Positions 41,239-62,941 of a stretch of DNA of 64,000 nt are shown here, one piece after another. The stretch is taken from the NCBI GenBank assembly GCA_027618995.1, contig JAQCGO010000001.1, forward strand, positions 1-64,000, in the 5' to 3' direction. Both the position numbers and the translations under genes were made by a program. Each line of letters starts with the position of its first letter. Positions within the stretch are counted from its first letter, which is position 1. The stretch is from Pseudomonadota bacterium (GTDB taxonomy: Bacteria > Pseudomonadota > Gammaproteobacteria > Steroidobacterales > Woeseiaceae). The notes below the pieces were generated by a model. That model saw nothing but the letters and a program-made list of their open reading frames with translations. It was not told the origin of the DNA and did no database searches.

Positions 41239-42318
41239 ATGCCGCATCCATGTACGCGCGTCCGCAATTTCATTGTCCCGCTGCTGGCCGGCCTGTTGCT
41301 GCTCGGCTGTACACCGACACCCGAGCGTATCGAGGTCAGGGTCGTCGTGCTCGCGATGTTCGAGCGCGGCGAGGTGCGTGGCGATGTACCCGGGGAGTTG
41401 CAGTTCTGGGTGGAGCGACTTGGAATGAATACCGAGTACGACTTCGCGCTGGGCCAGGGAACGCTGTACATGAACGACGCCGGCGTCATGGCGGTGCTGC
41501 TCGGCGGCGGCATACCGAATGCCACCGCGACCACGCTTGCACTCGGTCTCGATGAGCGCTTCGACTTCAGTCACAGCTACTGGCTGGTAGCAGGTATCGC
41601 TGGCGCCGACCCGGCCGACCTGTCGCTGGGATCCGCCGCCTGGGCGCGGCACGTGGTGGATGGCGATCTGCTCTACGAGATCGATGGCCGCGAAATCCCG
41701 GCCGAATGGCCTTACGGCATGATGCCACTCGGTACGCGCGCGCCGGCGATGGATCCTGAGGATCTCGCCGGTGGCTGGACCGTCGATACCATTGCCTATT
41801 CGCTGCACGCAGGTCTCGTGAACTGGGCCTATTCCGTCACGCGCAATATTGATCTGGACGATGCGCCCGGGATCGCCGCCTACCGCGAACATTACGGTAC
41901 GTATCCCGAAGCTCAGAAGCCGCCATTCGTGACCGTTGGTGACACGCTGAGTGCGAGCACTTACTGGCATGGCGAGCTCATGAATCTCTGGGCCAATGAC
42001 TGGATGAAGCTCTATCGCGGCGCGGACGCCAATTTCATGACGTCGAATATGGAGGACAGCGGCACGCTCACCGCGTTGCACCGGCTGGCCAACGATGGCC
42101 GCGTTGACGTCGATCGCATCCTGGTGCTGCGGACGGCCAGCAATTTCACTATGCCGCCGGAGGGGCAGACGGTGCAGTGGAGTCACAGCCAGCCCTATCC
42201 GGATGGCGGCCTGCCGTCGCTCGAGGCCGCGTTTGTTGTCGGCAATGCCGTGGTGCAAGCCTTGCTCGACGGTTGGGCACAGTACCGCGATGAATTACCG
42301 AGGGCCGAGACGCCATGA
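41239..42318 (+). CDS. NUP-family (purine nucleoside permease) lipoprotein with a nucleoside-phosphorylase-like fold
   Basis: 359 residues. Lipoprotein signal (LLLGC). The sequence matches the NUP family, named after a yeast nucleoside permease, but it has no further membrane segments and shows phosphorylase-like features: LLGGGIPNATATTLAL, VAGIAGADP, and MEDSGTLTAL with a following RTASNF, which parallels the MExxA and xSD motifs of purine nucleoside phosphorylases. It may therefore bind or cleave purine nucleosides in the periplasm. GAGGAA ribosome site. Overlaps the base permease gene by four bases (ATGA), consistent with base release followed by import. Confidence 0.8.
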   Translation: MPHPCTRVRNFIVPLLAGLLLLGCTPTPERIEVRVVVLAMFERGEVRGDVPGELQFWVERLGMNTEYDFALGQGTLYMNDAGVMAVLLGGGIPNATATTLALGLDERFDFSHSYWLVAGIAGADPADLSLGSAAWARHVVDGDLLYEIDGREIPAEWPYGMMPLGTRAPAMDPEDLAGGWTVDTIAYSLHAGLVNWAYSVTRNIDLDDAPGIAAYREHYGTYPEAQKPPFVTVGDTLSASTYWHGELMNLWANDWMKLYRGADANFMTSNMEDSGTLTALHRLANDGRVDVDRILVLRTASNFTMPPEGQTVQWSHSQPYPDGGLPSLEAAFVVGNAVVQALLDGWAQYRDELPRAETP

Positions 42319-43610
42319 AGCTTCTGCAAAGACTATTTCATCTACAAGAGCACGCGACCACGCCGCGCGTCGAATCGATGGCGGGGCTCACGACCTTTCT
42401 GACGATGGCGTATATCACGGTCGTCAATCCGTCAATTCTGTCCAGCGCAGGCATGGATTTCGGCGCCGTGTTTGTCGCCACCTGTATCGCGGCGGCTTTC
42501 GGAAGTATCGTCATGGGGCTGTACGCGAATTACCCGATCGCGCAGGCGCCGGGCATGGCGCAAAATTCGTTCTTCGCTTTCGGCGTGGTGCTCGGCATGG
42601 GTCACGCCTGGCAGACCGCGCTCGGCGCCGTGTTCATATCGGGCGTGATTTTCGTGGTCCTGAGTGTGCTGCCGGTGCGCGAGTGGCTGATCAATGCGAT
42701 TCCGCGCAATCTGAAGCTCGGCATGGCGGCCGGCATCGGTCTGTTTCTCGGTTTCATCGCCCTGAAGAACGCCGGCATTGTCGTCGACCATGAAGCGACG
42801 CTGGTGTCGCTCGGCAAGCTCGTCAGCTTCGAACCGATGGTGTGTATCGGCGCGTTCGTCATCATCGCCGCACTCTCGGCGCGCAAGGTGCGCGGCGCGG
42901 TCATCATCGGCATCCTTGTGGCCACTGCGGTCGGCTGGTTGTTCGGTAACAACGAATTCCACGGCATTATTGCAATGCCGCCATCGCCGGCACCCGTGTT
43001 GCTGCAGCTCGATATCGTAGCGGCGCTGCAGTGGTCAATGGTGACCGTGATCCTGTCGATGCTGATCGTCGACGTGTTTGACACGGCCGGCACGCTGGTC
43101 GGTGTTGCACATCGTGCCAAGCTGACCGACGCCAATGGCAAGCTGCCGCGACTTGGCAAAGCGCTGCTGTCGGATTCAAGCGCAACCGTCGTCGGCGCGT
43201 TCGCCGGCACCTCGTCAACGACGAGTTATATCGAGAGTGCGGCGGGCGTGGAGGCGGGCGGCCGCACCGGCCTGACCGCGGTCGTCTGCGGCCTGCTGTT
43301 TCTCGGCTGCCTGTTCTTCGCACCGCTCGCGCAAAGTGTGCCGGCCTACGCGACTGCGGCGGCGTTGTTGTTCGTCGCCTGCCTGATGGCACGCAGTCTT
43401 GCCGATATCGACTGGGACGACATCACCGAGAGCGCACCGGCCGTGATTGCCGCGCTCGCCATGCCGCTGTCGTTCTCGGTGGCCGAGGGCATCGGGCTCG
43501 GCTTCATCAGCTACATCCTGATCAAGCTCGTTAGCGGCAAAGCGCGCGATTGTTCTGCGGCGGCTTATGTGATCGCCGTGATCTTCGCTCTGAAATATAT
43601 TTTTCTCTAG
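42315..43610 (+). CDS. NCS2-family purine base permease (AzgA/GhxP-like)
   Basis: 431 residues, twelve or more membrane segments, of the adenine/guanine/hypoxanthine branch. The N-terminal GLTTFLTMAYITVVNPSIL, QAPGMAQNSFFAFGVV and GTSSTTSYIESAAGVEAGGRTG are typical of that branch. It probably imports purine bases with protons. The exact base cannot be told. It is translationally coupled to the upstream NUP gene. The stop overlaps that of the convergent kinase fusion at 43607. Confidence 0.9.
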   Translation: MKLLQRLFHLQEHATTPRVESMAGLTTFLTMAYITVVNPSILSSAGMDFGAVFVATCIAAAFGSIVMGLYANYPIAQAPGMAQNSFFAFGVVLGMGHAWQTALGAVFISGVIFVVLSVLPVREWLINAIPRNLKLGMAAGIGLFLGFIALKNAGIVVDHEATLVSLGKLVSFEPMVCIGAFVIIAALSARKVRGAVIIGILVATAVGWLFGNNEFHGIIAMPPSPAPVLLQLDIVAALQWSMVTVILSMLIVDVFDTAGTLVGVAHRAKLTDANGKLPRLGKALLSDSSATVVGAFAGTSSTTSYIESAAGVEAGGRTGLTAVVCGLLFLGCLFFAPLAQSVPAYATAAALLFVACLMARSLADIDWDDITESAPAVIAALAMPLSFSVAEGIGLGFISYILIKLVSGKARDCSAAAYVIAVIFALKYIFL

Positions 43611-45388
43611 TAAGAGCTCGTGCGCCGCACTGGCTGAAACAGGTCCTTGCGGTGCGCACAAGCCGGATCGACAGCGCATTCCGCACATCGTGGTGGACTC
43701 ATTTCCGGGCAGCGCTCGCGCGCCTGGAAAAAGAACCAGTCAACGGCACCCATGCTCTTGCCCGAGAGCATCACAAGTTGCTGCATGGCGCCGAAAGCCG
43801 CCGAGCGTACCGCCCACTCGTCGCTCTCGGGCAACAATGCACGCCGCACCAGTCGCTCCCGGAGCGTTGGCTCGCGCACCTCGATCAGGCCCATACGCAA
43901 GCAGGACCGCATGACGTGGTAGTCGACGATCGGCGGCACCTCGGCGGCGTTTGCAACCAGCCACGCCTCTGGGCGCTGCAGCAGGATCACGGCGAGCAGG
44001 GCCGATTTCTTACGCAGCGGATCTTCCTTGTAGCCGCCGATGTGATCGAGCAATTGCAGCAGCGCAGTCACAGGCGCGCCCGACGCATTGATTTTCGCGA
44101 GTGCAATGCTCGGCGTGAGGTCCAGGGCCAGCATGTCGCGCCCGTAGGCGCGTGCGAGGGCGAGGTGCGTATCAAGCTCGGGCATTGGTTCGCTGCCATC
44201 GTCGGCGCGCAACACGGCTCTTAGCTCCGCTGCCGTCAGTTTCGCCTGTGCCGCCGGCGACAGGCGCTCCGGGTCGTCCCGCAGCCAGCGCATCCAGGCA
44301 CGGAACAGGTAAAACGCGCCTTTGCGTTGCTCGCCATCGATATGCGCGATCAACGGCTGCGCGTAATGATCGTTCGCGGCGGTCCAGAAGCCGAATTGTT
44401 GCAGCGCACTCGTGAAAAAGTAGTCGAGCGCGGCCGGGTGATCTGTTGCCGGCAGATCGGGCCCGGTAAACGCAAACGGTGTGATATCAGGCAGCCCGGC
44501 AATCAATGCGGCGATGCGTTGCAGCTGTTGCTCGTGGACGATGACGCGTGCGTCGGTCGCGGTGACGGGTGCCGGCAGCTCGCTGAGCAAGGCGGCAGGC
44601 CCGACCTTTGTGGTCATTTCTGCAGCAAGCGGCATTGCACGCCGCGCCGCCATCACAGGGTGCTGCGCTGCGGCAATTCCGACCAGTGTCGCGCCACAGA
44701 AGGTATCGCCGGCGCCGGTCGGATCCAGAAGAGTTGCCGGAACACCAGGGACATCCGTCTGTGTTTTTCCCTGCACCACGGTGGCGCCCTGCCGTCCGCG
44801 GGTGACGAACAGCAATTGTCCGGCGCGTGAATGTGTTGCGGCCACGGAGCCGAAGAGGCGTATTGCCTCCGCTTCATTCATGAAGAAGATATCGGCAGCC
44901 TGCAGCACCGCGCGGGCCTCGTCTGCCTGAGTCTTCATCAGTGTCAGCGCGGTGCCCGCAGAAATACAGCGTGCGCCTCGTACGCGACAGGCCTGCAGGA
45001 AGGCGTACTGCCGGCGAATATCGCCAAGCGGCACAAGGTGTACAGCGTCAAAGCCGGACAGGTCCTCGGGAAGCCCTTCCGGTGACAGTTCATCTTCGGC
45101 ACCGAAAAATGCGCTGACGTAAGTCGTCCGGCCATCATGGTGATTGATCTCAAAGCGCGGCAGATCTTCCGGCCTGATTGACGGGCCGAGCCAGGTCAGA
45201 CCGGCAGCAACCGGCTGTAGTGCGCCCGGCATCGGTTCCGGCCGTGGCGCGTACAGGGTGACCGCGGCACCGCTGCGCCGTGCGGCCATGGCCGTGTACA
45301 TACCCGCACCACCGGCAACAATTTCCTCGCGGCCATCGAGCCTGTCGAGCGACGCGCCGCCGACGATGAGTAATTGGACTTCAGGCAA
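43607..45388 (-). CDS. PfkB-type kinase fused to a Qng1/endonuclease III-like Fe-S glycosylase domain
   Basis: About 593 residues from TTG 45388, chosen for AGGAAG eight bases upstream; an ATG at 45436 without a ribosome site is the alternative. Residues 1-280 are a PfkB kinase: GGASLDRLDG, GGAGMYTAM and the catalytic DPTGAGD (222-228). Residues from about 315 to 593 resemble Qng1 (queuosine-5'-phosphate N-glycosylase): QFGFW, ELRAVLRADDGSEPMP, and VDYHVMR (Asp489), which also aligns with the catalytic VDTH aspartate of endonuclease III. The end has four cysteines (560, 568, 571, 577; spacing 7, 2, 5), like the endonuclease III Fe-S loop (6, 2, 5). Likely chemistry: phosphorylate a nucleoside, then release the base and ribose-5-phosphate. 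Queuosine is one candidate substrate. The domain assignment is by eye. Confidence 0.7.
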   Translation of the reverse strand: MPEVQLLIVGGASLDRLDGREEIVAGGAGMYTAMAARRSGAAVTLYAPRPEPMPGALQPVAAGLTWLGPSIRPEDLPRFEINHHDGRTTYVSAFFGAEDELSPEGLPEDLSGFDAVHLVPLGDIRRQYAFLQACRVRGARCISAGTALTLMKTQADEARAVLQAADIFFMNEAEAIRLFGSVAATHSRAGQLLFVTRGRQGATVVQGKTQTDVPGVPATLLDPTGAGDTFCGATLVGIAAAQHPVMAARRAMPLAAEMTTKVGPAALLSELPAPVTATDARVIVHEQQLQRIAALIAGLPDITPFAFTGPDLPATDHPAALDYFFTSALQQFGFWTAANDHYAQPLIAHIDGEQRKGAFYLFRAWMRWLRDDPERLSPAAQAKLTAAELRAVLRADDGSEPMPELDTHLALARAYGRDMLALDLTPSIALAKINASGAPVTALLQLLDHIGGYKEDPLRKKSALLAVILLQRPEAWLVANAAEVPPIVDYHVMRSCLRMGLIEVREPTLRERLVRRALLPESDEWAVRSAAFGAMQQLVMLSGKSMGAVDWFFFQARERCPEMSPPRCAECAVDPACAHRKDLFQPVRRTSSY

Positions 45389-45495
45389 AATCCGTGCTTC
45401 CTGCAAAGGTATAATCTTGTTGGCTTTTATTTTCATCTGCAGTTTGATCTGCGGGTTCAATTTACCGACATCTGCCTCGGCGAGCGACAACAATT

Positions 45496-46410
45496 ATGAA
45501 ATCAGAGATCGTCGTCAAGGACGGCAAGGTATTGCACCTCGGGCTGGCGAAAGGCCAGCTTGCAGACAAGGTATTTTTGGTTGGTGATCCGGCGCGTGCA
45601 TTGCGGGTCGCCGAGCGCTTTGATCGCATCGACTGCGATGTGCGTAACCGGGAGTACGTGACAATCACGGGCAGCTACCACGGCCTGCCCATTTCCGTCA
45701 TTGGCACCGGAATTGGAGTGGACAACGTCGAAATTGCGTTGGTCGAGGCCTACGCGGTCGGTGCGATCGACTTTGATTCCTGCGAAACGGTGCCGGGCCG
45801 CACAGCCATGACGTTTATTCGCATCGGCACGTCGGCCGGTATGCAGGACGATATCGAGCCCGGCACCCTGGCGATATCAAGCTACGGCCTGGGTCTGGAT
45901 AATGCGGGCTTGTACTACGATCACCCGGCTGGCGACGAGCTGGTAACAGAAATCGAGACCCAGGCATTGCGCATTCTCACTGATGCAACATTGGCCGGCG
46001 CGAGATTTCGCGGCAAAATCATACCGTATGCATCCAAAGCGACGCCGCGGGTGGCGGATGCGCTCGCGGCGTGTGCGGCGACGTTGAGAATCGCGCACGT
46101 CACCGGCATTACGGCCGCCACACCGGGCTTCTATGGTCCATCCAGTCGCCGTATCGAGGGACTTTGCAACACGGTTCCGGACATCAAGACGCAACTATCG
46201 CGATTACAGGTGCAGGAACAAAAGGTCGTCAACATGGAAATGGAATCGAGCCTGTTGTTTCATGTTGCGGCACATCTTGGCTGTGCGGTGGGTACCATTT
46301 GCCCGATCATCAGCAAACCGCGCTCGAGTACCGCGATCCTCGATTACGCCGCCAGCGTAGAGCAGGCAATCAGTGTGGGGCTGGACGCGATGTGCGAGCT
46401 GCAGGCCTAA
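45496..46410 (+). CDS. Nucleoside phosphorylase (uridine phosphorylase-like)
   Basis: 304 residues of the PNP/UDP superfamily. Phosphate-binding LVGDPAR, GTGIGVDNVEIAL, IRIGTSAG and the nucleoside-binding MEMESSLLF are present, in the order seen in uridine phosphorylase. The product is a free base and ribose-1-phosphate, which DeoB (38153) could process. Substrate preference (uridine, purine or modified nucleoside) is uncertain. It is divergent from the kinase-glycosylase fusion. A TATAAT at 45410-45415 precedes it but lacks a convincing -35. Confidence 0.85.
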   Translation: MKSEIVVKDGKVLHLGLAKGQLADKVFLVGDPARALRVAERFDRIDCDVRNREYVTITGSYHGLPISVIGTGIGVDNVEIALVEAYAVGAIDFDSCETVPGRTAMTFIRIGTSAGMQDDIEPGTLAISSYGLGLDNAGLYYDHPAGDELVTEIETQALRILTDATLAGARFRGKIIPYASKATPRVADALAACAATLRIAHVTGITAATPGFYGPSSRRIEGLCNTVPDIKTQLSRLQVQEQKVVNMEMESSLLFHVAAHLGCAVGTICPIISKPRSSTAILDYAASVEQAISVGLDAMCELQA

Positions 46411-46418
46411 GTCCCGGT

Positions 46419-46991
46419 TCAGCTCCGGTCGGCCACCAGTATGCTGGCCAGGTAAAACAGTGTGCCGAGCGCAGGGCGCTGTGGCAGCTGCGTTGCGATC
46501 TCGGTCATGATCGAGCCAAGCATGTGAATGTTCTTGGGAAACAGTGACGCCGCCTGGGCGCGCAGGAACACCGTGCCGCTGAGGCGGCTGCCGTCATCCA
46601 GGTACAAATGCAGTTCGCGCACGCATTTCGCGTCCACGTCATTACTGTGCTGCGGCATCGGCTCATTGCAAAACGTGATCACGGCGCGTTTCGACTGCGG
46701 AAACCTGCTCAGGCAATTGACTACGTTTGCCATTTTTTTGGCCATGCCATCGCGATAATTGCCCTGGGCGCCACCGCGTGTCTCGTTGATATGACGCCGC
46801 TGCTCGTCGCTCAGCGATATTTCCATGTTGTATGCACTGTAAGCCTGCAGCGCTGGCTCCGGGAATAGATCTGTCGCAACCACATGGTCGCTCATATCGA
46901 GCAGTTGCACATAGTTGCGTACCGGCCCCTGCGCGCAGGCCGTGTTCATTGTTTGCCAGGCGAGACGGCAATTTTTCGGCAAAATGCTCAT
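46419..46991 (-). CDS. Truncated thymidylate-synthase-like protein
   Basis: 190 residues. The segment from Cys123 (CVRELHLYLDDGSRLSGTV) aligns with E. coli ThyA from its catalytic Cys146, with the tyrosine and DG at identical distances. Arg144 matches ThyA Arg166 and Asn154 matches Asn177. The RSxD motif is RAQA, so its serine and aspartate are lost, and the C-terminal HxY region is missing. It may be a nucleotide-binding or hydroxymethylating relative, or inactive. The ATG overlaps the aldehyde dehydrogenase stop (ATGA). Last gene of a four-gene minus-strand run from 51188. Confidence 0.6.
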   Translation of the reverse strand: MSILPKNCRLAWQTMNTACAQGPVRNYVQLLDMSDHVVATDLFPEPALQAYSAYNMEISLSDEQRRHINETRGGAQGNYRDGMAKKMANVVNCLSRFPQSKRAVITFCNEPMPQHSNDVDAKCVRELHLYLDDGSRLSGTVFLRAQAASLFPKNIHMLGSIMTEIATQLPQRPALGTLFYLASILVADRS

Positions 46992-48436
46992 GCGGGCGCA
47001 GCGCAAATGCTTTTGATCTCGACGTACTCGTCGAGGCAATCCAGGCCGTGCTCGCGGCCGAGACCGGATTGCTTGATGCCGCCAAACGGCAGGTCATTGG
47101 CAAAGATATGCGCCGAATTGACACCGACGACGCCGGCTTCGAGTGCCAGGGCGCAGCGCTCGAGCCGTCTGGCATCACTGGAATAAACATAGGCGGCGAG
47201 GCCCGCCTGTGTGGCGTTGGCCATCTGCAGTGCCTCTGCTTCGTCTGAAAATTCGTAGAGACAGGCGATAGGGCCGAAGATTTCCGCGTCATAGGCCGGC
47301 ATGTCCGGCGTCATGGCGGCGAGCACCGTAGGTTGAAAGAACAGCGTCGATGTATCGTCCTGGCCGCCACCCGTTAACAGCTCGGCACCCATGCTGGTCG
47401 CCGTTGCGACCAGGCGTGAGAGACGCTCGATGGCCGCGCGATTGATCATCGGACCGATATCGCTCGCGTCGTCGAAGCCGTCGCCCGCCCGCAGTTTTGC
47501 GACGCGCGCTGCGAGCCGGGTGGCGAATTCCGTGTAAATTCCTTGCTGCACAAGATAGCGATTGGCACCGACGCAAATCTGCCCGCTATTGTAAAAGCGT
47601 GCCCCGACCGCACCGTCCAGCGCCTTTTCCAGATCTGCGTCGTCAAAAACGATGAACGGCGCGTTGCCACCAAGTTCCAGCGCGAGGCGTTTGACGGTGT
47701 CTCCGCAAGCGACGTACAGCTGCTTGCCAACTTTCGTCGAGCCCGTGAAGGAGAGCATACGCACGTCAGGGCTGATACACAGTTCGTGGCCAATGTCCGC
47801 GGGATTCTTGCACGGCAACACATTGTAGACACCAGCCGGAATTCCAGCGCGCTCGGCAAGACGCGCGAAGGCCAGTGCGATCAGCGGCGTTGCATCGGAT
47901 GGTTTGACGATAGTCGTGCAGCCAGTCGCGATCGCCGCGCCGGCCTTGACGATGACAGCAGCGGCCGGAAAGTTCCATGGGGTGATACAGGCGACGACGC
48001 CGATAGGTTGCTTGATCGTGGAATTGCGTTGCCCGGAGTCTTGTGTGGGCAAGTCCGTGCCTTGCAGGTATTCAGCGCGTTCCGCAAACCAGCGCAACAA
48101 GGCCGCACATTGCAGGATCTCGCCTTTCGCCTCACGCAGCGGTTTGCCGTTTTCCGCACAAATAATCGTCGCGAGGTCTGCAACATTGCGGCTGATGAGT
48201 TCGGCCCAGCGGTGTATGGCAGTAAGCCGTTCCTCGAGTGGCGCGTCTTTCCAGCGCGCAAGGGCGCGAGATGCCGCCGCAATCGCGTCGCGCACATGCG
48301 ACGCGTCGAGATCGCTGACTTCGGCGACAACCTGCAGTGTTGCCGGATTGACGACTGTAAATTGCCGCGCAGAGTCAATGCCAACACCGTCGATCCAGCC
48401 GCTCGTCAACAGCAACTCATTGTGCGCTAACTGCAT
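46988..48436 (-). CDS. NAD(P)-dependent aldehyde dehydrogenase, succinate-semialdehyde type
   Basis: 482 residues. Motifs: ITPWNFP, KPSDATPL, SFTGSTKVGK, the general base in LELGGNAP, and the catalytic cysteine in NSGQICVGANR. The C-terminal NDLPFGGIKQSGLGREHG closely follows GabD-type succinate-semialdehyde dehydrogenases. It oxidises an aldehyde to the acid, presumably the product of the alcohol dehydrogenase encoded just upstream (ten-base overlap). The natural aldehyde is unknown; there is no 4-aminobutyrate transaminase nearby. Confidence 0.9.
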   Translation of the reverse strand: MQLAHNELLLTSGWIDGVGIDSARQFTVVNPATLQVVAEVSDLDASHVRDAIAAASRALARWKDAPLEERLTAIHRWAELISRNVADLATIICAENGKPLREAKGEILQCAALLRWFAERAEYLQGTDLPTQDSGQRNSTIKQPIGVVACITPWNFPAAAVIVKAGAAIATGCTTIVKPSDATPLIALAFARLAERAGIPAGVYNVLPCKNPADIGHELCISPDVRMLSFTGSTKVGKQLYVACGDTVKRLALELGGNAPFIVFDDADLEKALDGAVGARFYNSGQICVGANRYLVQQGIYTEFATRLAARVAKLRAGDGFDDASDIGPMINRAAIERLSRLVATATSMGAELLTGGGQDDTSTLFFQPTVLAAMTPDMPAYDAEIFGPIACLYEFSDEAEALQMANATQAGLAAYVYSSDARRLERCALALEAGVVGVNSAHIFANDLPFGGIKQSGLGREHGLDCLDEYVEIKSICAAPA

Positions 48437-49601: not shown

Positions 49602-51188
49602 CTATTCACTGCCTGCGACCGGTGTTTGCCGGCCGCGTACCGGAGTTGTAACGAGTTCCCGGTCGCGGAAATACTGGACGACGACTTCTGACACCTTGCC
49701 GACACTGCGGATGACGGGCGACTCCGGGAACGAGTCGTACAGGTCGCCGCCCTCGCTCAGGAAACCCGCCGCGGCGACAGTAAATCGGTCGTCGTCCATG
49801 ACCGGCTGGCCGTTACGCTGCAGCGTAATGACGCGGCTGTACTTGGGCTGGCTCAGATCATAGGTCATGGCCAGACCCGACAATTGCAACAATCCGCGTT
49901 CGAATGTCAATGATTGTTCGAGTGCGCGACGGATCTGGTGGCCGCTCATCTCTATGACGTTGACGTCGTCGACAAACGGATAGGTGTCGAGCAGGTCGAC
50001 CAGCAGCACGTCACCCGCAGGAAGGTCCTTACGCAAGCTGCCACCGTGTATGAAACCGATATCGGCACCACTGGCCGCAACCAAAATATCCGCAAACAGA
50101 TTGCCGACGTCAGACTCCTCGATATAGCGCCTGACCAGCGGCGCTTCGGTGCTGCCGACTTTGACCATGATGTCCGAGTGCTTTTCGCGGTACTTCTGCA
50201 GTTTGGCCAGGATTCGGGGATCTGGCAGCAATTTCGACGACTCAACCGGGATCAGTTTGCCGTCGTAGCTCTTGATTTCGCCGGTAGCACCGTCCAGCGT
50301 CAGCTGCAGGAAACCAAGGTGCGTCGCCTGCCCGTAGGTCTGCATGATCAGCGTGCCTGTTTCTGGTTGCACGACAGGCGCCGGCGTGCCGGCATCAGCG
50401 TGGCCCGCGAACAAAACGTCGATACCGTTGACGGCACCGGCGAGTGCGATATCCGCGTCGATGTCGCGCTGCAGTCGCGGATCGGACTCCGCGTCGGTCT
50501 GCATTGGTGCCGTCATGCCCTGGTGTGTCAGCAATACGATCAGATCGACCTGGTCGCGCAATTCCTCGATCGACTTCTGCACCGCCGCGGCAGGCTCGCG
50601 CACATCGAGGGGTGCGATGTACGACGGAATGATTGCCGTGGCCGCGTCCTGGCCCATGATGCCGATGACGCCGATACGTACACCATCGCGCTCAATAATT
50701 GTATGTGCCTGTGCGTACGGGTGATCGGTATCGCGATAGAAAAAATTCGCACCCAGCACCGGGAACGGCGCGCGATTCTTTTGCCATTCGAAAATCTCGT
50801 GACCGTACTCGAATTCATGATTGCCAATGGCCATTGCGTCATAGCCCATCGTGATCATGAGTTCGAACGCCAGTTCGCCCTCCGTGAGCTTGGCCAGCGC
50901 GCCCGTAAAGATATCGCCGGAGTCGAACAGGAAAACGTTCGGCTCTGTCTCGCGAATCGAGTCGATCAACGTGGTCAGTTCGGCAATGCCACCGATCATG
51001 TCGACATCGTTGAGCCAGAAAGCGGGGATCGGATCGTAGGCACTTTCCACGTCGTTAGTGAACAACAGGGTTACGATTCGGTCGCTCTCGGCCGGTGCCG
51101 ATGCTATCGGTGCCTTTTCTGACGCATCGCAGCCGACCAGCGTCGTTGTCAGGACACAAAGCAAAAGCAGGAATCGATTCATAGTCAT
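49602..51188 (-). CDS. Exported bifunctional metallophosphatase/5'-nucleotidase (copy 1), lipoprotein
   Basis: 528 residues. Lipoprotein signal (TLVGC). An N-terminal metallophosphatase domain (about 35-290) has GDIFTG and GNHEFEYG. The C-terminal 5'-nucleotidase substrate-binding domain includes ESDVGNLFADIL and the aromatic region DTYPFVDDV. Two usual metal-ligand histidines differ: the NDxH motif is TNDVES and GHxH is GHADAG. The likely role is dephosphorylation of nucleotides or nucleotide sugars in the envelope. It is a paralogue of the gene at 61364. Divergent from a HAD nucleotidase. Confidence 0.85.
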   Translation of the reverse strand: MTMNRFLLLLCVLTTTLVGCDASEKAPIASAPAESDRIVTLLFTNDVESAYDPIPAFWLNDVDMIGGIAELTTLIDSIRETEPNVFLFDSGDIFTGALAKLTEGELAFELMITMGYDAMAIGNHEFEYGHEIFEWQKNRAPFPVLGANFFYRDTDHPYAQAHTIIERDGVRIGVIGIMGQDAATAIIPSYIAPLDVREPAAAVQKSIEELRDQVDLIVLLTHQGMTAPMQTDAESDPRLQRDIDADIALAGAVNGIDVLFAGHADAGTPAPVVQPETGTLIMQTYGQATHLGFLQLTLDGATGEIKSYDGKLIPVESSKLLPDPRILAKLQKYREKHSDIMVKVGSTEAPLVRRYIEESDVGNLFADILVAASGADIGFIHGGSLRKDLPAGDVLLVDLLDTYPFVDDVNVIEMSGHQIRRALEQSLTFERGLLQLSGLAMTYDLSQPKYSRVITLQRNGQPVMDDDRFTVAAAGFLSEGGDLYDSFPESPVIRSVGKVSEVVVQYFRDRELVTTPVRGRQTPVAGSE

Positions 51189-51262
51189 GGCATTCAGTCC
51201 GTGCAAAAATGTCAATGTTAACGCAGGTGATAATAACAGAATCATTTCGGGTGTGACGTTCG

Positions 51263-59879: not shown

Positions 59880-61367
59880 ATGAAAGCCTCAAAAGGCGCT
59901 CCCCAACCGGAGCGCCTTTTTTTTGCCCTCTTGCTGGTCCTCGCGCTGGCCACAGTCGAGGTCGGCGCTGCGGAGGCCGCAGCTCGCTCGAATATTATTG
60001 TCGTGATGGCGGACGATCACGGGCAATGGGCGCTCGGTGCCTACGGCCTCGAGCAAATCGACACGCCCAACATCGACTGGCTGGCGCAGCAGGGCGTGCT
60101 GTTTGCCAACGCCATGTCGCCTGCTCCCGTGTGTTCCGCCGCGCGAGCGAGCTTTTACACGGGCAAGATGCCGTCGCAACATGGTGTGCACGATTTTCTG
60201 AGTGAGCAGGCCGAATTCGACGCGAACTGGCTGGCCGGCGAGACATTATTGTCAGAGCGGCTGTCGCTTGCCGGCTATCGCAGCGGACTGTTCGGCAAGT
60301 GGCACGCCACGACCAACAGCAAGCCGCCGCAGCGCGGCTTCGATCGCTGGCTTAGCTATGATCCGTACGGGGCGGGTTATCAGAACCAGTACGTTCACTC
60401 CGGCACAGTCAGTTTCTCGAGCGACGGGGAAGCGCAGACCTACACCGGTGTGCAGGCTCATTTCCTCACCGGGGAGGCGATCCGGTTCATTGATGATGGT
60501 GGCGACAAGCCGTTTTTCATCAGCCTGAATTTTACCGAACCGCACGCGCCGTATGCGGGATTGCCCGAGCGCCTGGTATCGCGCTACCGGCCGGTCGCGG
60601 ATAGCGTCGTCAGGGCCGGTGGTTCGTCGGCGCTTGCCGATCGTGGGCCGGAAACTACGGTTCCAGACGATCATATTGAACAACTGGCGCAATATCTGGC
60701 GGCGATCACACTGATCGACGAGCAGGTCGGGCGTCTGCTCGATGCATTGCAGGGGCGCGGACTGCTCGACAACACCTTGATTGTGTACACCTCGGATCAT
60801 GGCATGCTGGTCGGGCAGTACGGCCTGTACGGTAAGACCAACGCGACCAACCCGCCGAATTTCTACGAAGAGACAATTCGTATTCCACTGATTGTGTACG
60901 GCGCCGGTGGACGCTTGCGCGATGCGCAGACACGCAGCGAGTTCGTGGACCTGCTCGACCTGCACGCGACTGTGATGGACTATGCGAGCAACGGCGCTGC
61001 GGCGACTGACTACGGACCGGGCAGGTCGCTCAGGCCCTTGCTTGAGGGCGAACGCAGCACGGCCTGGCGCACGGTGCAGATGGCCGAGCGCGGCGAGGTT
61101 CGCATGGCGTCGGACGGACGCTGGAAGCTCGTGCGGCAATATCAGCGCGATGCCGCAATACTGCCACTCGATACCTGGTATGACCTGGCTCATCCTTTCG
61201 GCGAGCGCGTCGCCGCGGACCTGCCGGATGCGGCCGTGCGTGGTCGCCTGATGACGGCTCTGGAACGATTTTTCCAGCGCTATGAAACCGATGAGCATTC
61301 GGGGCGACGCATCTGGCAACAGCCGCCACCGAATGCACGCATGCGCGACGATCTCGCCGCTGACTAA
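59880..61367 (+). CDS. Exported sulfatase (second copy, CxAxR active site)
   Basis: 495 residues. Signal peptide with n-region MKASKGAPQPER and a hydrophobic core. Active-site motif CSAARASFYTGK has Ala at the usual Pro position, an accepted variant of C-x-(P/A)-x-R. Metal ligands are in MADDHGQW and YTSDHGMLVG. It is distant from the sulfatase at 54874. It starts 28 bases after the receptor stop, and a strong terminator hairpin lies inside its first 45 bases, so expression from the receptor promoter must be largely cut off unless the terminator is bypassed. Confidence 0.85.
   Translation: MKASKGAPQPERLFFALLLVLALATVEVGAAEAAARSNIIVVMADDHGQWALGAYGLEQIDTPNIDWLAQQGVLFANAMSPAPVCSAARASFYTGKMPSQHGVHDFLSEQAEFDANWLAGETLLSERLSLAGYRSGLFGKWHATTNSKPPQRGFDRWLSYDPYGAGYQNQYVHSGTVSFSSDGEAQTYTGVQAHFLTGEAIRFIDDGGDKPFFISLNFTEPHAPYAGLPERLVSRYRPVADSVVRAGGSSALADRGPETTVPDDHIEQLAQYLAAITLIDEQVGRLLDALQGRGLLDNTLIVYTSDHGMLVGQYGLYGKTNATNPPNFYEETIRIPLIVYGAGGRLRDAQTRSEFVDLLDLHATVMDYASNGAAATDYGPGRSLRPLLEGERSTAWRTVQMAERGEVRMASDGRWKLVRQYQRDAAILPLDTWYDLAHPFGERVAADLPDAAVRGRLMTALERFFQRYETDEHSGRRIWQQPPPNARMRDDLAAD
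59891..59924 (+). terminator. Intrinsic terminator inside the 5' end of the sulfatase gene
   Basis: Perfect eight-base stem (59895-59902 with 59909-59916), loop CCAACC, then eight T (59917-59924), with A residues before it. It follows the receptor stop by about 40 bases but encodes residues 6-15 of the sulfatase signal peptide if that gene starts at 59880. Confidence 0.85.
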
Positions 61368-62941
61368 TTCAGTGGCTGTGCGGCTGCCAGGTCGCGCTGC
61401 CGGCCAGCGACCGGCGTCGTGATATTGCCATGCTTGCGAAAGTAGTCGATTGTCAGCTCTCCGAGTGGTCGGCTTTCGCGCAACAGTCTGGTCTCAAGAA
61501 ATTCATCGTAGTGATCGCCGCCCTGGGCAATGATCGCCGGTGTTGCAACCTCAAACAGGTCGTCGGGCCGGACGGCGACGCCGTTGTGACTGAGTGACAC
61601 CAGCCGCTGCCGTTCCGGCTTCGAAGTGTCGTAAACGATTTCGAGGCCCGATACCTGGAGCAGACCTCGCAGCAGCGTGAACGACTGTTCGAGGATCGCC
61701 CGCAGCTGTTTACCCGTGACCTGCAGGACGACGACTGGATCGACGAATGGATTCGTATCCAGGATGTCGGCGACTTCCACCGCGCCTTGTGGAATGTCTT
61801 TTCGGATTCCGCCCGGGTTCAGCATGCCGATGTCGGCACCTGTCATCTCGACCGCAATGTCGGCCAACAGATTGCCAAGGTCGGACTCATCGAAATAGCG
61901 CCGGTTCAGGCGTTGCTCGACGTGACCGACAACCTCGGTGATTTCCGGGTAGGCAGCGCGATAAGCATCCATCTTCTGCACAATGATTGGGTCCGGGCGC
62001 AGCCGGTCCGAGTCCACAGGCACCAGCTTGCCGTCGTAGGACTTGATCCTGCGAGTCTCGCCATCGAGCGTTAGTTGCAGATAACCCAGATACGTTGCCT
62101 GGCCAAAGGTTTGCATGATTAGCGTTCCCGTTTCCGGATGTACGACGGGTTTGCGCGTGCCCGCATCCGCGTGACCGCCAAATAGCACGTCGATGCCCGG
62201 AACGGCCCCGGCAAGGGCAATGTCGGCATCGATGTCACGGCTGAGGCGTGGATCGGCCTCAGCATCGGTCTGCATGGGTGCCGTGTGCCCCTGGTGGGTC
62301 AGCGCAATGATGAGGTCGACGTCATTGCGTAATGCGCTGACCGACTTTCGTATCGCCTCGGCAGGATCGGTTACGGTGAGCTCATCGATATGCCATGGCG
62401 CAATCGCCGAGGCGGCCGCATCCTGGCCCAGCGTGCCGATGACGCCGATACGAATGCCGTTGCGCTCGATCACTGCATGCCGTTGTGCAAACGGATGATT
62501 GCTACCCTTATAAAGGAGATTCGCTCCCAGAACCGGGAACGGCACGAGATTCTTCTGCCATTCGAGTATGGCCTCACCATAGTCGAATTCGTGATTGCCG
62601 ATCGCCATCGCGTCGTAGCCCATCGTGATCATGAATTCGAACATCAACGCGCCATCGGTCAGCCGGGACAACGCGCCCGTGAAAATGTCCCCGGAATCAA
62701 ACAGAAACACGTTCGGCTCATCGCGGCGAATGTCTTTGATCAGGGTGCTGAGCTCGGCGATGCCACCGATGTGTTGCAAATCATCGCGCCACCAGACCGG
62801 CACCGGTTCGTAGGCGCTCTCCATGTCGTTCGTGAATAGCAGTGTAACGATGACATCTTCACTGTCGGGCTGCGGTTGCGCCCCGACCGGCAGCAGGCAG
62901 CACAGCAGTACAACAATTTTCTGGTGTCGAAAAATTTGCAT
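61364..62941 (-). CDS. Exported bifunctional metallophosphatase/5'-nucleotidase (copy 2)
   Basis: 525 residues with a signal peptide (cleavage near VGAQPQ); unlike copy 1 there is no clear lipobox. Metallophosphatase motifs GDIFTG and GNHEFDYG are present, and the C-terminal nucleotidase domain has ESDLGNLLADIA and LDTNPFVDPV. As in copy 1 the first motif is TNDMES (Glu in place of His) and the last is GHADAG. The two proteins are similar along their whole length, so they arose by duplication. Convergent with the sulfatase gene, four-base overlap. ATG at 62941. Confidence 0.85.
   Translation of the reverse strand: MQIFRHQKIVVLLCCLLPVGAQPQPDSEDVIVTLLFTNDMESAYEPVPVWWRDDLQHIGGIAELSTLIKDIRRDEPNVFLFDSGDIFTGALSRLTDGALMFEFMITMGYDAMAIGNHEFDYGEAILEWQKNLVPFPVLGANLLYKGSNHPFAQRHAVIERNGIRIGVIGTLGQDAAASAIAPWHIDELTVTDPAEAIRKSVSALRNDVDLIIALTHQGHTAPMQTDAEADPRLSRDIDADIALAGAVPGIDVLFGGHADAGTRKPVVHPETGTLIMQTFGQATYLGYLQLTLDGETRRIKSYDGKLVPVDSDRLRPDPIIVQKMDAYRAAYPEITEVVGHVEQRLNRRYFDESDLGNLLADIAVEMTGADIGMLNPGGIRKDIPQGAVEVADILDTNPFVDPVVVLQVTGKQLRAILEQSFTLLRGLLQVSGLEIVYDTSKPERQRLVSLSHNGVAVRPDDLFEVATPAIIAQGGDHYDEFLETRLLRESRPLGELTIDYFRKHGNITTPVAGRQRDLAAAQPLN

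Follow-up and report, generated by a model that had tools for sequence, protein, structure and literature searches.

The first 64,000 nucleotides of contig JAQCGO010000001.1 (assembly GCA_027618995.1, a Pseudomonadota bacterium of the Woeseiaceae), here called the window, raise the question of what is done by a minus-strand gene that joins a PfkB-type kinase to a domain resembling Qng1. The analysis confirmed that this gene specifies a single 593-residue protein, its PfkB kinase preceding a domain that has the Qng1/DUF2419 fold in full. As judged from the sequence and from predicted models, the protein is fairly probably a bifunctional enzyme that dismantles nucleosides, phosphorylating the nucleoside and then cleaving the 5'-phosphate to base and ribose-5-phosphate.

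43607 to 45388, minus strand: the whole gene, a PfkB kinase plus a Qng1-like domain of Fe-S type; 593 residues, TTG start
44546 to 45379, minus strand: PfkB kinase domain, residues about 4-281 (PF00294; structural match to 3kd6_A)
44705 to 44725, minus strand: kinase motif DPTGAGD, residues 222-228 (from the sequence)
43610 to 44521, minus strand: Qng1-like glycosidase domain, residues 290-593 (PF10343; structure model; Qng1 at Z 26.9; hhalign)
44009 to 44011, minus strand: K460, aligned with Qng1 K199 (alignment)
43922 to 43924, minus strand: D489, aligned with Qng1 D231 (alignment)
43658 to 43711, minus strand: four-cysteine loop C560-x7-C568-x2-C571-x5-C577, a presumed [4Fe-4S] site (conservation)
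43610 to 43624, minus strand: C-terminal R589-T-x-x-Y593, aligned with the RTxxY end of Qng1 (alignment)

The open frame spans 43607-45493 when its longest start is used, and the TTG at 45388 gives 593 residues. Because this equals the length of the nearest relative, L011 (593 residues), the coordinates 43607-45388 were accepted, with the TTG as the probable start on the evidence of relatives' length. The C-terminal domain of L011 is 86% identical to that of the window protein, and when the two genes were compared, the nonsynonymous/synonymous substitution values (dN/dS) were 0.161/1.08 in the kinase portion and 0.090/0.80 in the C-terminal portion. A search for related loci returned 52, and these, together with the dN/dS values, indicate that the fusion exceeds what chance would produce. 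Kinase and C-terminal matches lay in one frame in 52 of the 58 loci scanned, and in 51 of the 53 made up by the window and L011-L062; the two exceptions were L029, where the parts fall in two overlapping frames, and L056, which is cut at a contig end. The full-length predicted model had a predicted local distance difference test score (pLDDT) of 92.9 and a predicted template modelling score (pTM) of 0.92.

The relationship of the C-terminal domain to Qng1 was apparent in profile searches and in structure comparison. PF10343 (Q_salvage) matched the whole protein at an E value of 1e-6 (29.1 bits against a cut-off of 25), over profile positions 4-108 of 285 only, and scored 32.0 bits with the C-terminal domain alone; 46 of the 52 aligned C-terminal domains, window included, matched it at E<=1 (best 1e-11) and the remaining six gave no match. 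A PDB profile search with the domain retrieved human QNG1 at E 1.4e-6, and hhalign against 30 Chloroflexota Qng1 proteins gave E 2.8e-7 and probability 93 over 244 columns at about 17% identity. With the predicted model of the domain (pLDDT 92.2), Foldseek rows 1-11 were Qng1 entries throughout (best E 8e-10; query TM 0.70-0.77), and the VIA structure comparison aligned it with Qng1 carrying queuosine-5'-phosphate at Z 26.9 and a root-mean-square deviation of 2.5 over 272 residues (model residues 1-303). The likeness to Qng1/DUF2419 extends across the whole domain and includes the equivalents of K199 and D231, an F-x-F-W stretch and the C-terminal RTxxY. In contrast to Qng1, the domain is joined to a PfkB kinase, carries the four-cysteine loop between its last helix and the conserved RTxxY tail, has different residues at several positions that never vary among the 30 Qng1 proteins aligned, and is covered by the Pfam model only in part.

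The original prediction had described the loop as like that of endonuclease III (EndoIII), with spacing 7-2-5, and as a feature that would set the protein apart from known Qng1 proteins. The spacing C-x7-C-x2-C-x5-C was exact in 52 of 52 aligned domains, as that prediction had it, and this loop of EndoIII type was absent from all 30 Qng1 proteins in the alignment. The cysteine motif of EndoIII has the spacing 6-2-5. The loop appears to be placed as in EndoIII and presumably binds a [4Fe-4S] cluster. A loop at the EndoIII position, and the fact that AGOG, EndoIII and MutY followed Qng1 in the VIA comparison at Z about 13-14, would suit a different enzyme, an EndoIII-type DNA or RNA repair glycosylase with an accessory kinase. 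We regard this as highly improbable, since Qng1 is structurally far nearer, the HhH-GPD family PF00730 matched only three of the 52 aligned domains, and these weakly (best E 0.05), and the neighbouring genes in the window are of salvage type. The window's own domain gave no Pfam match to PF00730 at E<=1. The window protein shares with the EndoIII/MutY-type Fe-S helix-hairpin-helix (HhH) DNA glycosylases the glycosylase fold and a group of four cysteines located at the corresponding domain end; it differs from them in cysteine spacing, in its much closer fit to Qng1 and in lacking the HhH-GPD match. The claim of a Qng1-like domain was borne out, with Qng1 at Z 26.9 against about 14 for EndoIII.

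Cysteine-rich Qng1-like proteins without a PfkB domain were also seen, at L102:2596-3705 (genome G055) and L095:1844-3379 (genome G495). The L102 protein matches AGOG under its cut-off (E 1.7e-4) and ends in ITTIFY, resembling the RTTFY of the fusion; the stop-to-stop frame of L095 also has a GIY-YIG domain upstream of its Qng1-like part. In the Chloroflexota genome G503, two Qng1-like genes (L098:407-1552 and L098:5648-6862) encode proteins whose C-terminal ends are rich in cysteine, possibly a further Fe-S branch of the Qng1 superfamily. Longer Chloroflexota Qng1 frames (L096, L099, L100 and L101) were considered as further fusions and rejected, as they had no second Pfam domain; a DUF1688 match in L101 was under its cut-off and overlapped the Qng1 domain.

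PDB entries 7u5a and 7ulc carry, according to their titles, changes at the Qng1 residues K199 and D231; in an alignment with the PDB chains, D231N fell on the Asp of FADYK and K199C on the Lys of KRAQ. K460 and D489, the equivalents of K199 and D231, were invariant in 52 of 52 fusion domains, and ten more columns were identical in all 30 Qng1 proteins and all 52 fusions (F332, F334, W335, G357, Y490, E524, R528, D550, R589 and Y593). At other positions where the 30 Qng1 proteins never vary, the fusions have a different residue (Qng1 residues in L080 numbering): Q for N90, R for Q257 and L for R260 in all 52, H for K254 in 51, Y for W102 in 50 and T for D87 in 45 of the 52. In the D-x-x-N-F-x-F-W stretch, the human QNG1 chain has the D and the N as well. 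In an alignment of about 17% identity, this pattern suggests that the chemistry has been kept and base recognition changed relative to Qng1; on sequence grounds, the replacements at D87, N90, K254, Q257 and R260 lower the case that the domain is a Qng1, not the case that it works like one.

The kinase half matched PF00294 at E 3e-18 (66.6 bits against a cut-off of 25.8) and contains the D-x-x-GAGD catalytic motif of the PfkB family. In an alignment of 42 full-length proteins, that of the window among them, the motif reads DPTGAGD in 39, DPTGAGE in two and DATGAGD in one. With this match, this motif and the single frame, the claim of an intact PfkB kinase continuous with a Qng1-like domain is upheld. 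In the VIA comparison of the full-length model, PfkB entries aligned at Z 28-32 across about 260-277 residues, indicating a ribokinase-type fold; the top row was a Chlorobium nucleoside kinase with AMP (3kd6_A; Z 31.7, model residues 4-279), followed by Escherichia coli ribokinase (31.1) and by Burkholderia and Methanocaldococcus nucleoside kinases (30.4 each), rows no more than one Z unit apart being treated as tied. Foldseek placed ribokinases in rows 1-3 and a nucleoside kinase in row 4. The first NCBIfam row was ribokinase (40.4 bits; cut-off 299.65), and every NCBIfam kinase match fell far under its cut-off.

The proposal of phosphorylation followed by cleavage rests on the Qng1 fold, the kept K199 and D231 equivalents, the nucleoside kinase at the top of the VIA comparison, the one-frame fusion and the nucleoside-related neighbours. 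The PfkB half would use ATP to phosphorylate the 5'-OH of a nucleoside, and the Qng1-like half would convert the nucleoside 5'-phosphate to free base and ribose-5-phosphate, presumably through the Asp and Lys that the alignment pairs with D231 and K199, their roles being assigned by analogy. The cysteine loop would most likely bind a [4Fe-4S] cluster that, as in glycosylases of the EndoIII type, has a structural role, and the probable substrate is a nucleoside, modified or purine-like, that is either imported or set free by nucleic-acid turnover. A published parallel is the pair PsuK and PsuG. The fold of PsuG is unrelated to that of the Qng1-like domain; PsuG also cleaves a C-glycoside, and the order of the two domains is opposite to that of the present fusion. 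The likeness lies in the pairing of a PfkB-type kinase with a nucleoside-5'-phosphate glycosidase, acting in the same order of steps, and fused (PsuKG) in some eukaryotes (PMC9247573). Similarly, PfkB is linked with a nucleoside glycosyl-enzyme family in the PF00294-PF05014 protein (PfkB plus nucleoside 2-deoxyribosyltransferase), which has been proposed to serve purine salvage, although there the glycosyl-enzyme comes from another family (PMC13329287).

Several observations weigh against this scheme of phosphorylation followed by cleavage. The kinase may act on ribose, because ribokinase was tied with the nucleoside kinase in the VIA comparison (Z 31.1 against 31.7) and took Foldseek rows 1-3 and the first NCBIfam row. 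This would fit the reverse order, in which the Qng1-like half hydrolyses the nucleoside and the PfkB half, as a ribokinase, makes ribose-5-phosphate, with equal net products; an Entamoeba DUF2419 protein has been reported to turn queuosine into queuine (PMC9406330). We consider this order unlikely, as the primary substrate of Qng1 is given as queuosine-5'-monophosphate (PMC11592518), and with the NCBIfam kinase matches so far under their cut-offs the specificity name means little. In addition, the final Asp of DPTGAGD is Glu in two of the 42 aligned proteins, the C-terminal domain at L094:1203-2240 has no kinase with it in its 4-kb locus, and the genome concerned (G652) yielded only weak PfkB matches when searched with the kinase half (best 31 bits), and the neighbours of the fusion are not conserved from phylum to phylum, synteny being lineage-bound.

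Within the scheme of phosphorylation followed by cleavage, queuosine itself might be the substrate, in which case the fusion would combine a queuosine kinase with a queuosine-5'-phosphate hydrolase and supply queuine by itself. Qng1 is the nearest characterised relative, its catalytic residues are kept, and of the 50 fusion genomes 43 gave a TGT match, above the cut-off in 42. However, TGT was also present in 14 of 14 control genomes, so that its presence is uninformative, and QueA did not discriminate either, being found in 43 of 50 fusion genomes and in 46 of 50 Qng1 genomes (the control being 50 of the 76 Qng1-matching genomes); QueA presence, considered as evidence against queuosine salvage, was dropped after this control. 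The survey of the pathway covered two genes, TGT and QueA. The substitutions at N90, D87, K254, Q257 and R260, seen in 45-52 of the 52 fusions, also speak against queuosine, as does the coexistence of a full Qng1 with the fusion, close to TGT, in three of the 50 fusion genomes (G060, G062 and G086; 290-297 bits, and 18.2, 1.9 and 1.9 kb from TGT, respectively). Of 29 fusions that were placed, 26 had a TGT found, and none of these 26 lay as close as 20 kb to it, a count limited by draft contigs. Since Qng1 is near TGT in those three genomes and the fusion is not near TGT in any of the 26, the gene positions point to separate roles for the two proteins there, queuosine still being possible as the substrate elsewhere. 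We therefore view queuosine, which the original prediction had named as a possible substrate, as somewhat disfavoured and the dedicated queuosine-salvage role as doubtful; of the co-occurrence survey that it proposed, the recurrence of the fusion was clear and the comparison with queuosine genes was non-discriminating. An additional QueA match of lower score (about 250-305 bits) occurs in many Qng1-bearing Chloroflexota, and an additional TGT match (about 230-315 bits) in five fusion genomes of Anaerolineaceae type.

Qng1 families, their neighbours and their fusions have been surveyed by networks (PMC11130926). Neither a PfkB-Qng1 fusion nor an Fe-S Qng1 was found in the openly licensed PMC literature, in the parts covered, although the supplementary tables of that survey could contain such proteins. 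Each half belongs to a superfamily already known. A fuller picture is offered more tentatively: one polypeptide might dismantle a modified nucleoside that is not queuosine, phosphorylating it and cleaving its N-glycosidic bond, an Fe-S branch of Qng1 might have kept the EndoIII-type loop and so record the passage from a DNA-repair fold to a mononucleotide hydrolase, and PfkB kinases might be the partners that supply 5'-phosphates to Qng1-type enzymes. If true, this would add a route of nucleoside degradation found in six phyla (mostly in metagenome-assembled genomes), provide a kinase-partner logic for Qng1-type enzymes, and identify a form bridging the Fe-S DNA glycosylases and the cluster-free Qng1 by which eukaryotes recover queuine.

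The phylum labels were taken from record titles, mostly of metagenome-assembled genomes. The 54 rows of the tree comprised Chloroflexota (25), Pseudomonadota (12), Gemmatimonadota (7), Acidobacteriota (3), Bacteroidota (2) and Fidelibacterota (2), with three rows having no title, and three changes were needed for Chloroflexota and two for Pseudomonadota. This suggests transfer between phyla, with mis-binned contigs also possible. The fusion was present in six of 25 genomes of its own genus (its own included) and in none of 15 genomes of the order's other families. PF10343 was found in one of 398 genomes of the phylum, the source genome itself, and this is a lower bound because the model recovers the fusion in just 29 of 50 genomes known to carry it.

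The genes around the fusion in the window include several with nucleoside-related families:

41239 to 42318, plus strand: NUP, purine nucleoside permease family (PF06516, E 4e-99)
42315 to 43610, plus strand: convergent xanthine/uracil-type permease (PF00860, E 3e-55), overlapping the end of the fusion by 4 bases
45496 to 46410, plus strand: divergent PNP_UDP_1 phosphorylase (PF01048)
49602 to 51257, minus strand: nearby 5'-nucleotidase, UshA-like (Pfam)

The salvage-type neighbours originally proposed were NUP, a base permease, a phosphorylase and DeoB; the first three were recovered, and a Pfam scan of 31 open reading frames (ORFs), part of those in the window, showed no DeoB (PF01676). Elsewhere in the window are a second 5'-nucleotidase (61364-62941), a YjjG-type nucleotidase, an adenosine-deaminase-family protein and an amidohydrolase. 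A salvage setting, also part of the earlier proposal, recurs in several related Pseudomonadota loci. The phosphorylase (cluster 6) adjoins the fusion in L017, L019 and L021 as well (Pfam checked singly for L017), and a 5'-nucleotidase directly adjoins it in L011, L018 and L020. In L042 the frame of a CNT nucleoside transporter stops one base before the fusion frame, and in L050 a deoxynucleoside kinase directly adjoins the fusion.

Unrelated genes flank the fusion in many other loci. Pooling the neighbours gave 77 flank ORFs, picked greedily by length so that some may be shadow ORFs, with 83 Pfam families, the commonest being Aldedh and Metallophos with four each; the nucleoside families among them were 5_nucleotid_C and PNP_UDP_1 (three each) and the CNT transporter, permease, dNK, SurE and SAM_HAT (one each). 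As synteny was lineage-bound and nucleoside families were a minority, a conserved neighbourhood was dropped as a guide to the substrate. For a short frame at 46419-47039 of the window, with no Pfam match, related frames (cluster 19) lie close to the fusion in both L019 and L021, and an AlkZ-related, DNA-glycosylase-like gene lies near the fusion in three Chloroflexota loci (L035:2748-3602, L046 and L054; cluster 27, Pfam for L035).

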